64,000 nt of DNA from Parafannyhessea umbonata. GTDB taxonomy: Bacteria; Actinomycetota; Coriobacteriia; Coriobacteriales; Atopobiaceae. Under the pieces are notes generated by a model. The model saw nothing but the letters and a program-made list of their open reading frames with translations, made no database searches and was not told where the DNA came from. Location: positions 1,488,001 to 1,552,000 of the forward strand of contig NZ_LT629759.1 of NCBI RefSeq assembly GCF_900105025.1, written 5' to 3'. This document shows, piece by piece, positions 1 to 43,253 of the stretch (positions are counted from its first letter, which is position 1; every line of letters begins with the position of its first letter). A program made the position numbers and the translations under genes.

Positions 1-372
1 AAACAGCGCGGCCATCGAGCGGGTCATCGTCGCGATGCCGCTCATGCGCTGCAGGTAGTTCAGCGCGACCCTCTCGCCCGAGAGCAGCGCGCGCACGTGG
101 GCGTGCACGCTTCCCAGCACCTGCCCCTCGCGCACGTCGTCTCCCTCCGATACGGAAAGCTCCGTCGTGGTGGTCGCGTCCAGCAGCTCGAACGTCCGCG
201 CAAACACGTCGAGCCCGCAGATGACGCCGTCCTGCTTCGCGATCAGCTGCACGCGGCCCACGGCCTCGGGGCCAATGACCGATGCCGTCGTGACGTCCTC
301 GCTGGTGACGTCCTCGCGCAGGGCCTGCAGTATGAGCGGCTCCGCCTGGAGCCTCAGGCTGACGGGATCCAT
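1..372 (-). CDS. nadC: Nicotinate-nucleotide pyrophosphorylase (quinolinate phosphoribosyltransferase), N-terminal part
   Basis: This is the third gene of the NAD de novo operon; the enzyme converts quinolinate plus PRPP to nicotinate mononucleotide. Only about 124 N-terminal residues are inside the window and the gene runs off the left edge. The visible part begins MDPVSLRLQAEPL. It contains the family's N-terminal features: the acidic LREDVTSEDVTT stretch, the QDGVICGLDVF barrel-sandwich segment, and LLSGERVALNYLQRMSGIAT, which precedes the catalytic barrel. The ATG at 372 overlaps the end of nadB by 19 nt, so the two are probably translationally coupled. Confidence 0.93.
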   Translation of the reverse strand, partial: MDPVSLRLQAEPLILQALREDVTSEDVTTASVIGPEAVGRVQLIAKQDGVICGLDVFARTFELLDATTTTELSVSEGDDVREGQVLGSVHAHVRALLSGERVALNYLQRMSGIATMTRSMAALF

Positions 373-1601
373 CCGTGCCTCCTCCTCACGATGTCCCGCG
401 CCGCCAGGCGCGAGAAGACCAGGCTCTCGAGCAGCGAGTTGCTGGCCAACCTGTTCTTGCCGTGCACGCCGTTGCAGCTCGTCTCGCCCGCGGCGTACAG
501 GTGCTCCATCTGCGTGCGGGAGTCCTGGTCAACGTGGATGCCGCCCATCAGGTAGTGCTGCGCGGGCACCACGGGGATCGGCTCCCGCGTGATATCGTAG
601 CCCTCCTCAAGGCAGTGCTGGTAAATGTGCGAGAAGTGCTCGCGACACACCTCTTCCGGCACGTTCGCGAACGAGAGCCACACGTGCCTGGTGCCGTCCT
701 TCTGCATCTGGCGCCTGATGGCGGCAGACACCACGTCGCGCGGCTGGAGCTCGTCCGTGAAGCGCTCGCCGTGCGCGTCCAGGAGCACCGCCCCCTCGCC
801 GCGGCATGCCTCCGATATCAGGAAGGAGCGACCAGGCTTGGTCGAGAAGAGCGTGGTGGGATGTATCTGCACGTAGTCCATGTGCTCGAGCGCCACGCCG
901 TGCTCCTGGCACACGCGGCAGCCGTCGCCCGTGAGGCAGGGGTAGTTCGTGGAGTGCTCGTACAGGCCGCCGACCCCGCCCGTGGCCAGCACCGTGTCGC
1001 GGGCCCGGATGGCAAGTCCTTCTCCCCTGGCGTCCCGCGCGTGCACGCCCACGCAGGCGCCGTCCTTCACCAGGAGGTCGTCCATGGTGGTGTACTCCAT
1101 GATGCGCACGTTGCGCAGCTCGCGCACGCGCGCCAGCAGCTTGGTGGTGATCTCCCTGCCAGTGACGTCCGCGTGGTGCACGATGCGGTTTCTGCTGTGC
1201 GCGCCCTCGCGCGTGTAGTCCAGGTCGCCCGCGGGCGTGCGGTCAAACTCCACGCCCATGCGGATGAGGTCGTTTATGATCTCGCGGCTCGACCAGATCA
1301 TGGTGTCCACGCTCTCGGGGCGGCATTCGTTGTGGCCGGCGCGCATGGTGTCGTCGAACCAGTAGTCGTAGTCGTCGTGGTCGCGCATCACGCAGATGCC
1401 GCCCTGCGCGAGCATGGAGTCGCAGCTTGCCACGTCCTGTTTGCTGAGCATCGCGATGCGCAGGTGGCGCGGCAGGTTCAGCGCCGCGTACAGCCCGGCC
1501 ACGCCGCAGCCCACGATGCACACGTCAAAGCTTATGTCACGCTCGCCCTGCGCCGCGTCCCTTCCCTCGCTCGTCACGACAGCCCCCTCCCGCGCGCTCA
1601 T
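354..1601 (-). CDS. nadB: L-aspartate oxidase, short form
   Basis: FAD-dependent oxidation of L-aspartate to iminoaspartate, the substrate of NadA. The Rossmann motif GCGVAG is at residues 31-36. The family signature region follows (SMLAQGGI, then EGAHSRNRIVHHADVTG), and near the C-terminus GVHGKNRLASNSLLESLVFS, typical of the succinate dehydrogenase/NadB flavoprotein fold. The protein is about 415 aa against about 540 for the E. coli enzyme, so the C-terminal helical domain is missing; short NadB proteins are known in anaerobes. I chose the ATG at 1601 because it forms an ATGA overlap with the nadA stop. The reading frame stays open further upstream but that part is out-of-frame nadA sequence. 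Confidence 0.93.
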   Translation of the reverse strand: MSAREGAVVTSEGRDAAQGERDISFDVCIVGCGVAGLYAALNLPRHLRIAMLSKQDVASCDSMLAQGGICVMRDHDDYDYWFDDTMRAGHNECRPESVDTMIWSSREIINDLIRMGVEFDRTPAGDLDYTREGAHSRNRIVHHADVTGREITTKLLARVRELRNVRIMEYTTMDDLLVKDGACVGVHARDARGEGLAIRARDTVLATGGVGGLYEHSTNYPCLTGDGCRVCQEHGVALEHMDYVQIHPTTLFSTKPGRSFLISEACRGEGAVLLDAHGERFTDELQPRDVVSAAIRRQMQKDGTRHVWLSFANVPEEVCREHFSHIYQHCLEEGYDITREPIPVVPAQHYLMGGIHVDQDSRTQMEHLYAAGETSCNGVHGKNRLASNSLLESLVFSRLAARDIVRRRHGWIPSA

Positions 1602-2614
1602 CGTGCCGCCAGCTCGAGCATGCGCTCGAGCGGGGCCATGGCCCTCTCCGCGTTGTCCGGAAGCGACACCTCGCCGAGGTTGCCCTCGAGCGCGGCGAGG
1701 ACCTTCTCCGGCCCCACCATCGCCATGTTCGGGCAGATGGGCGGCGTCGCCGGGAAGTAGACGCGCTTGCCCTGGCCGGCCGTGAGGGGGCCGATCTCGG
1801 CCGCGACGCCCACCACCGTCAGCACGATGAACTCGTGCGCGTCGCTTTGGGCGATGTGCTCGATGATCTGCTTCGTCGAGCCTATGTAGTCCGCCTCGCG
1901 CAGCACCTCCTCGGAGCACTCCGGGTGCGCACAGACCTCCGCCTCGGGGTGCTCAAGCTCCAGGCGCTCCACCTCCTGTGGGATGATGCGCTGGTGCGTG
2001 GGGCAGTAGCCGCGGTTCAGGATCACGTTCTTCTGGGGCAACTGCTCTGCCACGTAGCGGCCGAGGTTCATGTCCGGAATAAACAGCACGTTGCGCTCGG
2101 GCAGCTGTGATATCACCTTCACGGCGTTCGAGGACGTCACGCACACGTCCGACCACGTCTTTATCTCTGCGGTCGAGTTGATGTAGCACGCCACGGCCAC
2201 GTCGCCGGCGTACCGTGCGCGGACCTTCTCCACATCCTCGCGACGCACCATGTACGCCATGGGACACAGGGCGCGCGGCTCCGGGTTCAGCACGCGGCGT
2301 GCCGGGTTCAGGAGCTTCACGCTCTCCGCCATGAACGACACCCCTGCGAGCACGATGGTGTCGCAGTCGAGCGTCTTGGCAAGGCGTGCCAGGTAGAACG
2401 AGTCGCCCACGTAGTCCGCGAGCGCCTGGGTCTCAGCCGGCACGTAGTAGTGCGCCAGCACCACGGCCCTGCGCTCGCGCTTCAGCTCCTGTACGCGGCG
2501 CTCGATGCGCGCGAGCTCCTCCGCGGAGAGGTCCGATCCCCGACCGCTCCTGAAGCGTCGCGTCGCCTCGCGGAGGCTCTCCTCCTCCACCGGCGTCCTT
2601 ACGTAGTCTTCCAC
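1598..2614 (-). CDS. nadA: Quinolinate synthase
   Basis: Condenses iminoaspartate with dihydroxyacetone phosphate to quinolinate using an oxygen-sensitive [4Fe-4S] cluster. Recognisable segments are VVLAHYYVPAETQALADYVGDSF near the N-terminus, the cluster-cysteine contexts ALCPMAYMV/VACYINS, CAHPECSEEV and, near the C-terminus, PPICPNMAMV. I prefer the GTG at 2614: it has a GGGAGG Shine-Dalgarno 7-8 nt upstream, and the predicted promoter would start transcription around 2656, leaving almost no leader for the in-frame ATG at 2653. Length (338 aa) fits the family. First gene of nadABC. Confidence 0.94.
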   Translation of the reverse strand: MEDYVRTPVEEESLREATRRFRSGRGSDLSAEELARIERRVQELKRERRAVVLAHYYVPAETQALADYVGDSFYLARLAKTLDCDTIVLAGVSFMAESVKLLNPARRVLNPEPRALCPMAYMVRREDVEKVRARYAGDVAVACYINSTAEIKTWSDVCVTSSNAVKVISQLPERNVLFIPDMNLGRYVAEQLPQKNVILNRGYCPTHQRIIPQEVERLELEHPEAEVCAHPECSEEVLREADYIGSTKQIIEHIAQSDAHEFIVLTVVGVAAEIGPLTAGQGKRVYFPATPPICPNMAMVGPEKVLAALEGNLGEVSLPDNAERAMAPLERMLELAAR

Positions 2615-2662
2615 AGCACTGCCCTCCCACGGGCGCGCCCCTCTGGCGCGCACTGGGTCCGC

Positions 2663-2691
2663 AGTATGCCACCTGACAAGACAGCTGACAA
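2663..2691 (-). promoter_or_regulatory. Predicted nadABC promoter
   Basis: Read on the minus strand: -35 TTGTCA (2691-2686), a 17-nt spacer, then -10 CATACT (2668-2663). It lies about 50 nt upstream of the nadA GTG. The -35 element is inside the left arm of the palindrome at 2682-2711, so a repressor bound there would block RNA polymerase. Confidence 0.6.
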
Positions 2692-2711
2692 GTCATGTGA
2701 CTTGTCAGCTG
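2682..2711. promoter_or_regulatory. 30-bp perfect palindrome, probable operator of the nad operon
   Basis: Two perfect 14-nt arms (CAGCTGACAAGTCA and its reverse complement) around a central TG. An extra half-site CTGACAAG lies just outside at 2673-2680. It overlaps the -35 of the nadA promoter, which suggests control by an NAD-responsive repressor. The sequence alone does not identify the repressor, and no repressor gene is adjacent. Confidence 0.6.
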
Positions 2712-2793
2712 AAAACTCCTTATGCCGCACAGATGGCCCGCACAGATGGCACCTAGGGTGCCAAGGCGTCAAAACGGCATCCACAAGCAGGCA

Positions 2794-3885
2794 TTATGCC
2801 AGGCCCTCGTCCCTTTCCTCCGGATAGGTCACGCCCCACTCGCGGCGCAGACCGGTCATCAGGTCCATCACGTCTGAGGCATAGTCGATCAGGCCGGCGG
2901 CCCGCTCGTCACCTGCGACAGCGCGCTCGAGGTCCGCGATCTCGTAGTCGAGCGCATAGCCCTCGACACCGCAGCGGACCTCCTCGACGCGCCCGTCCTC
3001 GGTCCACACTATCCTCGCCTCGTCGGCGCGCGGGTAGTCGGTCACCTCGACGTAGCACCTGTCGAACGAGAGGATGCCACGCTTTGGCTGCTTGGAGTGG
3101 AGGCTCAGCGTGAAGGTGGCGATTTGGCCGTCCGGGTTCCTCATCACGATGCCCGAGGTCTGGTCCACCCCGGTCGACGCGAGGTTCGCGAGCGAGAGCA
3201 CCTCCTGCGGCTGGCTCTGCATGAACTGGCGCGCGAACGTGATGGCGTACACGCCGATGTCGAGCATGGCGCCACCAGCGAGGTTCGGGTTATAGAAGCG
3301 GTTCGTGAGGTCGCCGTACTCCTTGTACGAGCCAAAGTTCACCTGCGCCAGATTCAGCGCGCCAAACTCCCCTGCCGCCTGGCGGCGCAGCAGCTCCCTG
3401 TATAGGGGCATGTGCAGGATCGTCGTGGCGTCCATCAGGACGACGTGGTGCTCGTCCGCGATGGCGCGCGCCTCCGCAAGCTCCTCGGAGTTCAGGGTGA
3501 TGGACTTCTCGCACAGCACGTGCTTCCCGGCCGCAAGCGTCGCGCGCAGGTAGCGGATGTGCGTGTTGTGCGGCGTCGTCACGTACACCGCGTCCACCTC
3601 GTCGTCAGCGCACAGCTCCTCCAGGGAGCCGTACACGCGCTCCACCCCGTAGCGCTCGGCAAACGCCTCCGCCTTCGCCTGCGTGCGGTTGCACACGCCG
3701 TGCAGGCGCCGCCCCGCAAGCGCCAAGGACTGGGCCATCTGGTTCGCGATCACGCCGCAGCCGATCACCGCCCAGCGCAGCTTCGGCGCCTCGAAGACGT
3801 CGCTCGGAAACTCCCTGCCCTCAACCTCGGCAAACGCCGCCACCGCCGCCTGCGCGGAATCGAGTGGTCTTTGTGCCATGCTCAC
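2794..3885 (-). CDS. Gfo/Idh/MocA-family NAD(P)-dependent oxidoreductase
   Basis: Cytosolic sugar- or cyclitol-type dehydrogenase of unknown substrate. The N-terminal Rossmann segment is WAVIGCGVIANQMAQSL. The family's cofactor/catalytic stretch VYVTTPHNTHIRYLRATLAAGKHVLCEKS contains the EKS lysine, and GGAMLDIGVYAITFARQF matches the substrate-domain motif (GG.L.D.G.Y). Length (about 361-363 aa) is normal. It starts at GTG 3885 or ATG 3879; a GGGGG tract precedes both. It is monocistronic, between the divergently oriented nad control region and the ilvE terminator. The dihydrodiol dehydrogenase-like branch is a possibility but the substrate cannot be assigned. Confidence 0.88.
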   Translation of the reverse strand: MSMAQRPLDSAQAAVAAFAEVEGREFPSDVFEAPKLRWAVIGCGVIANQMAQSLALAGRRLHGVCNRTQAKAEAFAERYGVERVYGSLEELCADDEVDAVYVTTPHNTHIRYLRATLAAGKHVLCEKSITLNSEELAEARAIADEHHVVLMDATTILHMPLYRELLRRQAAGEFGALNLAQVNFGSYKEYGDLTNRFYNPNLAGGAMLDIGVYAITFARQFMQSQPQEVLSLANLASTGVDQTSGIVMRNPDGQIATFTLSLHSKQPKRGILSFDRCYVEVTDYPRADEARIVWTEDGRVEEVRCGVEGYALDYEIADLERAVAGDERAAGLIDYASDVMDLMTGLRREWGVTYPEERDEGLA

Positions 3886-4016: not shown

Positions 4017-5048
4017 CTACTCCACGTCGATCTTGTGGACCCAGCCAAACTTGTCCTCGATCTCGCCGGACTGGATGCCCGTCAGGGTCTCGCGCAGCTT
4101 CTTCATCACGGGACCAACGTGCTCCATGCCATAGACGACCTGCTTGTCGTCGGAGTCGACCTCGCCCACCGGGCTGATGACGGCCGCGGTGCCGCACATG
4201 CCGCACTCCACAAACTGGTCGATCTCGTCAAAGCGCACGGGGCGCTGGGTCACCTTGATGCCCAGGTAGTTCTCGGCCACGTCCACCAGCGAGCGGCGCG
4301 TGATGGACGGCAGGATCGAGTCGGTGTGCGACTGCGGAACCACGAGGTTGCCGTCCTTGTCCACAAACAGGAAGTTCGCGCCACCGGACTCCTCCACGTA
4401 CGTGCGGGTCTCGGGGTCCAGGAACATGTTGTCCGCATAGCCCGCCGCATGCGCCTCGACGGAGGGCAGAAGCGACATGGCGTAGTTCAGGCCGGCCTTT
4501 ATGTTGCCGGTGCCGTGCGGTGCCGCGCGGTCATACTTGGAAACCTGCACCTTCACGGGCTTCACGCCGCCCTTGTAGTAGGCGCCCACCGGCGTCACCA
4601 GGATGCGGAACTGGTACTCGTCGGCCGGCTTCACGCCGATGACGTTGCCGGTCGCGATCATGAGCGGACGGATGTACAGCGTCGCACCGGAGCCAAACGG
4701 CGGCACCCAGGCGGCGTTCGCGCGGACGACCTTCTCGACGGCGTCCACGAAGCGGTCCTCCGGGAACGGCGGCATCACGATGCGGCGGGCGCTGTTGGCC
4801 ATGCGCTTCGCGTTCTGGTCGGGCCTGAAGCAGACGATGTCGCCCTTCTCGGTGGTGTATGCCTTGAGGCCCTCGAAGACCTCCTGGCAGTAGTGGAAGA
4901 TGCCAGCGCACTCGGAGAGGGTAATGGAGTGGTCGGTGGTTAGCGCCCCTTCGTCCCACTTGCCGTCCTTGTAGTTGGAAACGTAGCTGTAGTCCGTGGG
5001 CTGGTAGGCAAACCCGAGGGCGCCCCAGTCTATGTCCTTCTTCTCCAT
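4017..5048 (-). CDS. ilvE: Branched-chain amino acid aminotransferase
   Basis: PLP-dependent transamination between Leu/Ile/Val and their 2-oxo acids. The protein is 343 aa, as in the longer (type II) class IV aminotransferases. Motifs: the pyridoxal-lysine region GTGNIKAGLNYAMSL, the YVEESGGANFLFV stretch, SILPSITRRSL, and the cofactor-phosphate segment ECGMCGTAAVISPVG. ATG 5048 has AGGAG 7 nt upstream; an upstream in-frame GTG at 5063 lies before this Shine-Dalgarno and is unlikely to be the start. The gene is alone, with its own terminator downstream. Confidence 0.96.
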   Translation of the reverse strand: MEKKDIDWGALGFAYQPTDYSYVSNYKDGKWDEGALTTDHSITLSECAGIFHYCQEVFEGLKAYTTEKGDIVCFRPDQNAKRMANSARRIVMPPFPEDRFVDAVEKVVRANAAWVPPFGSGATLYIRPLMIATGNVIGVKPADEYQFRILVTPVGAYYKGGVKPVKVQVSKYDRAAPHGTGNIKAGLNYAMSLLPSVEAHAAGYADNMFLDPETRTYVEESGGANFLFVDKDGNLVVPQSHTDSILPSITRRSLVDVAENYLGIKVTQRPVRFDEIDQFVECGMCGTAAVISPVGEVDSDDKQVVYGMEHVGPVMKKLRETLTGIQSGEIEDKFGWVHKIDVE

Positions 5049-5168
5049 CAACACACTCCTCACGATAGAACCGTATCCCCGCTTGCGCGCGGAGTGCAGA
5101 AGAGTCTACTACGGCGAGAAGAACGTGGCGTTTTATATCGCACGGATGAGACAGGCCTGAAACACTTC

Positions 5169-5195
5169 GCGCGCTCGCAACCCCTGCGAGCGCGC
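5169..5195 (-). terminator. Terminator of the asrABC operon
   Basis: A perfect 11-bp stem (GCGCGCTCGCA / TGCGAGCGCGC) with a 5-nt loop, 14 nt after the asrC stop, followed on the minus strand by GAAGTGTTTC. The tract is weakly T-rich but the stem is very strong. Confidence 0.65.
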
Positions 5196-5208
5196 TTCGG
5201 AAGGCTTG

Positions 5209-6198
5209 CTAGCGCAGGCTGTTGTCCCGGTCGTAGCGCTTCCCGTCCCAGTACACACGGGTCGCACGCTGGCATTTCTCCGGAAGCTCGACGCCTTCGA
5301 GCGCCCACTTGCAGAACTCGTCAAAGCCCACGCGGTCCACTATGTAGCCTATGTGTTCCTTCCCCTCCGGCGCGTTGGGGTCGATGTACTCCTCAATGAA
5401 CGCGTAGGTGTTCTTCACGATCTTCACGATGGAGTCCTCGTCCACCCAGCGCAGCCAGTCCTGCGCCATGCGCGGGTTCTGCTTGCCGGTGCGGCCCATG
5501 ATCTTCACGCGGAAGTAGTGCTCGGGGCTACGCGTCCACGCGCGCGTGGGGCAGTACACCACGCACACGCCGCAGCCGATGCAGCGGTCCTCGTCGCGCA
5601 CCACCTTGTCGTTCACGAGCCTGAGCGCGCTCACGGAGCGGCGCTGGCACCAGTCCACGCACTGCCCGCAGCCTATGCAGCGCGTCGGGTCGTACTGCGG
5701 CTCCGTCATCCCGATGATGCCGAAGTCGTTCAGGGCAACGTGCGCGCAGTCGTTGGAGCAGCCGGTGAACGCCACCTTCACGTGGCGGTTGTTCGGGAAG
5801 ATCTCGTGGTCCATGCGCTGTGCGAATGCGGTGGTGTCATAGCAGCCAAACGGGCACAGGCGCTTGCCGGGGCACGCCACGACGTTGCGCGTGCCGCTTG
5901 CCAGGTAGCCCTGGGACGTGTCCTCCTGGTTGATCTGCGTGTCCTCGATGACCTGCTGCAGGAGCGCGTTCACCTTTGGCATGTCGTCCAGGCTGATGCC
6001 CGGGATCTCCACGCCCTGGCGGTTGGTGAGAAAGATCTCTCCGTTGCCGAACTCCTCTGCAATCTCGACGATACGCGTCATGCTCTTGGCGCTCACGAGG
6101 CCGCCGGGCACGCGCACGCGGCTCGCGGTCTCGCCGCGTACCTTGCTGTATCGGAAGGCGTTCTTCTTCAGCGCCTTTACGTTGACGTCCTGAATCAT
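5209..6198 (-). CDS. asrC: Anaerobic sulfite reductase subunit C (siroheme subunit)
   Basis: Catalytic subunit that reduces sulfite to sulfide. The N-terminal half has the nitrite/sulfite reductase ferredoxin-like domain (GLVSAKSMTRIVEIAEEFG, FLTNRQGVEIPGI). The siroheme-[4Fe-4S] cysteines are in CPGKRLCPFGCYDTT and CSNDCAH. Two ferredoxin clusters follow, CIGCGQCVDWCQ and CIGCGVCVVYCP. Length is 329 aa, as in clostridial and Salmonella AsrC. It is the last gene of asrABC, 10 nt after asrB. With metY in the same window, sulfide could feed homocysteine synthesis, but that link is inference. Confidence 0.95.
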   Translation of the reverse strand: MIQDVNVKALKKNAFRYSKVRGETASRVRVPGGLVSAKSMTRIVEIAEEFGNGEIFLTNRQGVEIPGISLDDMPKVNALLQQVIEDTQINQEDTSQGYLASGTRNVVACPGKRLCPFGCYDTTAFAQRMDHEIFPNNRHVKVAFTGCSNDCAHVALNDFGIIGMTEPQYDPTRCIGCGQCVDWCQRRSVSALRLVNDKVVRDEDRCIGCGVCVVYCPTRAWTRSPEHYFRVKIMGRTGKQNPRMAQDWLRWVDEDSIVKIVKNTYAFIEEYIDPNAPEGKEHIGYIVDRVGFDEFCKWALEGVELPEKCQRATRVYWDGKRYDRDNSLR

Positions 6199-43205: not shown

Positions 43206-43253
43206 CGAACCCACACGCGAGAAGAACTCACTCCTTGTAATTACCTTACAGCA

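Follow-up and report, generated by a model that had tools for sequence, protein, structure and literature searches.

The window analyzed here, a stretch of 64,000 nucleotides, begins within a minus-strand cluster of genes for de novo NAD synthesis, in which nadA and nadC flank a gene for a FAD_binding_2 protein that we take to be nadB from its position and from general knowledge of the family (Table 1). The preliminary description of this DNA stated that no NiaR gene is adjacent. This was wrong, and the gene was missed because the window edge cuts the operon inside nadC: base 1 of the window is contig position 1488001, nadC ends at 1487515, and a gene for a 178-aa protein, niaR, starts 2 nt farther on the same strand, 489 bp to the left of base 1, so that the gene order is nadA-nadB-nadC-niaR, with niaR in fourth place in the operon. 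The genome contains one match to the 3H domain (PF02829), at G000:C1:1487015-1487302.

From its sequence, the product of this fourth gene is predicted to be the repressor NiaR. It combines the N-terminal HTH and the C-terminal 3H domain that define the family (HTH_11, PF08279, 55.1 bits; 3H, 107 bits; curated cutoff, 25 for each), and its best match in a search of PDB sequences was NiaR 7cv0 (E value, 2.5e-36; residues 3 to 167), further matches being 9ebr and 1j5y, the latter identified in the available part of PMC7713382 as TM1602 of T. maritima. A search against NCBIfam returned two matches only, both below the cutoff. The zinc/niacin residues reported for B. halodurans NiaR in the same partial source (H83, E91, H150, and H152; PMC7713382) are conserved as H74, E82, H141, and H143 in the alignment to 7cv0, and the gene is linked to NAD synthesis genes, as members of the family are, both here and in 74 of 80 related nadA loci. 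The domain layout and the four ligand residues are thus common to this protein and B. halodurans NiaR (7cv0/7cv2; PMC7713382, as far as available). The difference lies in the host, since 7cv0/7cv2 NiaR comes from a Bacillus, whereas the present gene comes from a genome whose closest nadA is that of Parafannyhessea umbonata strain 105184 (98% identity); L009, a locus with the same species name, reaches 73%.

Anatomy of the nadA promoter region

Upstream of nadA lies an inverted repeat, CAGCTGACAAGTCA / TGACTTGTCAGCTG, with 14-bp arms (2682-2695 and 2698-2711) that are 100% complementary across a 2-nt gap, and beside it an additional half-site, TGACAAGACA, occupies positions 2674-2683, 12 bp from the unit at 2686-2695; both elements are as the preliminary description had them. 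Together they form one array of three 10-bp units in a 12-bp register, with the consensus TGTCTTGTCA in either orientation. Read along the minus strand, the units are TGACAAGTCA (2707-2698), TGACTTGTCA (2695-2686), and TGTCTTGTCA (2683-2674), and all steps between them have the form CAnnTG; the first two units with their flanks constitute the perfect palindrome, and the third is the half-site. Perfect 14-bp arms with a gap of at most 8 occur at two places in the window (here and at 43253) and at none in 40 Markov-1 random windows, and a scan of the entire genome (2,353,093 bases, one contig) for the 22-bp core, with up to three mismatches, gave this operator only. Between the operator and the next gene, a short distance upstream of the former, stands a 13-bp perfect tandem repeat (CCGCACAGATGGC, two copies, window positions 2725-2750).

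The array overlaps a predicted minus-strand promoter, TTGTCA-17-CATACT, which extends from 2691 to 2663, has a TG ahead of the -10 hexamer, and is σ70-like by its sequence. The earlier placement of the palindrome over its -35 element is confirmed, and this is the sole promoter-like site in positions 2300 to 3000 (mean in shuffled sequence, 0.0; standard deviation, 0.2). Since the right part of the middle unit serves as the -35 hexamer, and most of the spacer is taken up by the third unit in minus-strand order, a protein bound to the array should block the promoter. Translation of nadA probably starts at the GTG at 2614, which stands 7 nt after GGGAGGG (2628-2622); the first GTG in the open reading frame, at 2653, is less likely because hardly any leader would then remain.

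Table 1. Genes and predicted control elements at the nadA end of the window (window coordinates unless a contig position is given)
Feature	Position	Strand	Remark
nadA, quinolinate synthase (PF02445)	1598..2653	-	likelier start 2614
nadB (presumed), L-aspartate oxidase; FAD_binding_2 protein between nadA and nadC	354..1607	-	
nadC, 5' part (QRPTase)	1..372	-	runs off the window to G000:C1:1487515
niaR, outside the window	G000:C1:1486976-1487512	-	starts 2 nt after the nadC stop
-10 hexamer CATACT	2663..2668	-	TG before it (extended -10)
Operator unit 1, TGTCTTGTCA	2674..2683	-	exact consensus; in the -35/-10 spacer
Operator unit 2, TGACTTGTCA	2686..2695	-	contains the -35 hexamer
-35 hexamer TTGTCA	2686..2691	-	within unit 2
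Operator unit 3, TGACTTGTCA	2698..2707	+	upstream of the -35 hexamer
Perfect palindrome, two head-to-head units with CAnnTG flanks	2682..2711	.	14-bp arms, 2-nt center

A symmetrical element ahead of nadA could also act in RNA, as an attenuator or a riboswitch; nadA leaders in other phyla can carry NAD riboswitches, which is what speaks for this idea. Its probability here is minimal: the palindrome precedes the predicted -10 hexamer and should therefore be outside the nadA transcript, an Rfam search of positions 2300 to 3000 gave two matches only, both scoring far short of the gathering threshold and neither near the palindrome, and no terminator-like site was found in the same interval.

Conservation of the unit upstream of nadA

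The preliminary description proposed that the palindrome be sought upstream of nad genes in relatives. It is found there, and the reading as an operator stands: among the 80 related loci, 69 carry a unit with at most one mismatch ahead of the nadA match (region of up to 650 bp, with less than that available in L010, L022, L033, and L081), compared with 20 matches in 757,427 bases of the same loci outside those regions, a background of 0.018 per region. The records bearing the unit are titled Olsenella, Collinsella, Coriobacteriaceae, Eubacterium, Hespellia, Lachnospiraceae, Veillonellaceae, Anaerovibrio, and others.

Seven of the 11 loci without such a unit nonetheless have niaR (L015, L016, L069, L075, L081, L082, and L083). 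Among these, L015, L016, and L069 show the printed type I form of NiaR operators, as TGT-N4-ACA units upstream of nadA (a count made with no chance control), L016 having two of them 12 bp apart; L083 has TGACTTGACA; in L082, a lone TGT-N4-ACA at a distance of about 300 bp is all that was found; L075 has neither the unit nor TGT-N4-ACA upstream of nadA; and L081 has no unit in the 207 bp available upstream. The other four are L080, where niaR is also absent, as in L023, at contig ends, and L053, L058, and L059, where unit and niaR are absent together: nadABC is present, neither the unit nor any TGW-N4-WCA within 450 bp was found, and the genomes (completeness not stated) gave no 3H match. The one remaining locus without niaR, L078, has the unit, and nadB and nadC were not found there either.

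L033 and L035 had too little flanking sequence and are not among the 57 distinct sites. Many Collinsella sequences being near-identical, repeats and alignment columns were analyzed on 49 representatives, chosen to differ from one another at more than 12 of 82 bases. In 28 of these 49 sites, a second unit (at most two mismatches) stands some multiple of 12 bp away, compared with 0.26 when the flanks are shuffled, and the chains comprise one unit in 21 sites, two in 23, and three in 5. In L006 and L062, about 140 to 170 bp upstream of the nadA match, the units are 11 rather than 12 bp apart.

Conservation at this position might be due to RNA polymerase and not to a repressor, TTGTCA being no more than a -35 element. 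Column counts, made on the 43 representatives whose best unit is plus oriented, bear on this directly, and because the core columns are conserved by the choice of matches, only the flanking columns are independent evidence. A promoter reading gains from the position of the -35 hexamer within a unit and from a -10-like hexamer 17 to 18 bp after the unit in 34 of the 43 sites (a raw count with no shuffled control). Against it, (i) the TG 12 bp on, in columns that played no part in choosing the sites, is conserved as well (T in 39/43 and G in 36/43); (ii) there are additional units away from the hexamers and in the opposite orientation; (iii) the A of the consensus TTGACA occurs in just one of the 43 sites, even though one mismatch was allowed; and (iv) the unit is missing from the three nadABC loci of genomes in which niaR had no match. 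We therefore regard a promoter without a repressor as very unlikely, and an operator as the better account of the conserved array.

Units and niaR across genomes

Of 81 family genomes searched, 37 contain the exact pattern TGTCTTGTCANNTG and 44 contain niaR, with both in 30 and neither in 30 (Fisher p = 1.4e-5, in a test that ignores relatedness); the reversed pattern, as a control, matched in 2 of the 81, once each. Because the 80 loci and the 81 genomes partly overlap (at least 11 of the 80 are in the 20 family regions examined), neither tally is independent of the other. Pattern and niaR are 3.3 to 4.0 kb apart, about the length of nadABC, in 27 of the 30 genomes with both. In the other three (G021, G052, and G063), the exact match is far from niaR, within an open reading frame in G021 and G063; at nadA itself, units with at most one mismatch are present in G021 and G063, and G052 has TGTCTTTACA, of type I form.

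Seven of the 37 genomes with the exact pattern lack niaR. Six of these matches are within open reading frames of at least 150 aa and look like chance. The seventh genome, G020, has a strong inverted-pair operator before a truncated nadA and no niaR match, in a genome 99% complete, and no nadB, nadC, or niaR was found in the fetched 10 kb (L148; G020:C10:297500-307500; operator at about 4927-5500), so that this operator looks like the relic of a recently decayed operon.

Conversely, 14 of the 44 genomes with niaR lack the exact pattern, and 10 of them have a unit with at most one mismatch upstream of nadA, including G055, whose nadA match reaches no more than 37.5% identity and is oriented away from nadB. 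A further one, G072, has a TGT-N4-ACA (type I) unit, and in G003 the nadA region is cut by a contig end and is not readable. The last two count against a NiaR operator: G009 shows no unit with up to two mismatches upstream of nadA or nadB, and G042, where only parts of nadB and nadC were found, shows none with up to one. In L157 (G009:C1:2213000-2220000), niaR stands behind nadB-nadC, and a 45%-identical nadA match lies beyond niaR. Overall, the 44 niaR genomes divide into 39 with the unit at or linked to the operon (27 linked by distance and not each read at nadA, plus 2 and 10 read at nadA), 2 with the type I form, 2 with none, and 1 that is not readable.

These counts also bear on whether another regulator (NrtR, NadR, NadQ, or an unknown factor) might use the palindrome, with niaR a mere passenger of the operon. 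The departure of the unit from the printed type I consensus and the two genomes with niaR and no unit are in favor of such a factor. Yet the NrtR WHD domain (PF21906) gave no match in this genome, in a search that was positive in 4 of 14 control genomes; the unit and niaR lie within 4 kb of each other in nearly all genomes that have both and are jointly absent from three loci; and relatives in which the operon is the same show TGT-N4-ACA units at this position. We give a different regulator very little credence, and NiaR remains the repressor predicted to bind the array.

Pattern searches and inspection of pncB and PnuC revealed no clear target in the present genome other than nadABC-niaR. With up to one mismatch, TGTCTTGTCANNTG matched at nadA (three rows) and at 716994, inside an open reading frame. 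A looser two-unit pattern, also with up to one mismatch, gave 13 rows, of which 6 are at nadA, 4 are copies of TGTCACGTCATGTGTCAA, and 3 are single matches, compared with 2 for the reversed control; two of the three single matches were inspected as further targets and were not convincing. The four TGTCACGTCATGTGTCAA copies (G000:C1:591514, 614659, 641924, and 1479250) are identical, and one inspected copy adjoins an open reading frame that by eye is transposase-like, so that the sequence is probably an insertion-sequence end. The gene pncB is present, with no unit of up to two mismatches in the fetched 3.5 kb around it, and PnuC had no match in the genome.

Predicted control by niacin and comparison with known NiaR operators

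Taken together, these data make it very probable that the palindrome is the operator of a niacin-responsive NiaR encoded by the last gene of the operon that it would control. The family of the protein, its conserved ligand residues, and the placement of the site over the promoter make niacin-activated repression, with autorepression of niaR, the most likely mode of action. When niacin is plentiful, NiaR loaded with metal and niacin would bind the units, which cover the region upstream of the -35 hexamer, the hexamer itself, and the -35/-10 spacer, and would exclude RNA polymerase, so that the genes for de novo NAD synthesis and the presumably cotranscribed niaR would be turned off; when niacin is lacking, NiaR would release the operator. 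The suggestion of the preliminary description that an operator over the nadABC promoter may define the site of the NAD repressor used in this lineage thus gains support, as a predicted site conserved upstream of nadA, and a nameless repressor would become a named regulator with a known ligand. It would also extend the NiaR/niacin switch, described for Firmicutes, Fusobacteria, and Thermotogales in the available parts of PMC5343564 and PMC7713382, to Olsenella, Parafannyhessea, Atopobiaceae, and Collinsella records, and the aligned site could be used to predict which of these bacteria control de novo NAD synthesis by niacin.

It is conceivable, though we think it rather unlikely, that the array represents a third class of NiaR site (TGT-N4-TCA), a ladder of near-palindromic 10-bp units in a 12-bp register and in either orientation, on which two or more dimers would sit side by side and the number of units (one to three) would tune repression. 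The operators with one, two, and three units would in any case offer a natural series on the packing of NiaR dimers on DNA.

A search at the level of titles found no paper on NiaR in Coriobacteriia; the site tables of RegPrecise and of Rodionov 2008, reportedly the founding paper on the NiaR regulon, were outside its scope. RegPrecise NiaR regulons have been applied to gut genomes, according to the accessible portion of PMC6593275. In S. pneumoniae, NiaR represses niaX, pnuC, and nadC through the operator 5'-TACWRGTGTMTWKACASYTRWAW-3', operator mutations relieve repression, and only one of two putative sites in PnadC mattered (PMC5343564, available part). B. halodurans NiaR binds nifS-nadB promoter DNA better with niacin, and a metal-site mutant binds it poorly (PMC7713382, available part).

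Two forms of NiaR (YrxA) operators are distinguished in the same partial text (PMC7713382): type I, TGT-N4-ACA, in the Bacillus/Clostridium group and Fusobacteria, and type II, ACA-N5-TGT, in Thermotogales. The latter does not occur in positions 2660-2715; the family of the repressor is common to both systems, but the steps between units here are ACA/TCA-N2-TGA and not ACA-N5-TGT. The strict type I consensus is not matched either, as the units (TGTCTTGTCA, TGACTTGTCA, and TGACTTGTCA) read TGT/TGA-N4-TCA, that is, the core TGTCTTGTCA (TGT-N4-TCA) and its variant TGACTTGTCA, and type I sites differ further from the present array of three units in a 12-bp register, two of which form a perfect 30-bp palindrome. 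Common to both are the 10-bp core, the CAnnTG-like flanking steps, and the position upstream of nad genes, and the type I layout, a core over a nad promoter with steps spaced by 12 bp, is recognizable here in a by-eye reading of the printed sites; also by eye, the B. halodurans test DNA TTTACATATGTCTTGACATC (PMC7713382, available part) aligns with the Collinsella sequence TTTACAGCTGTCTTGTCAGC. The earlier remark that this is not a standard site is therefore right as to the printed TGT-N4-ACA consensus, but not as to the layout, which is that of NiaR-bound DNA, nor as to relatives such as L015 and L016, which have TGT-N4-ACA itself. Since the strict consensus is unmatched while the type I layout is kept and relatives have type I units in place, the site is best described as a type-I-like variant with repeated units.
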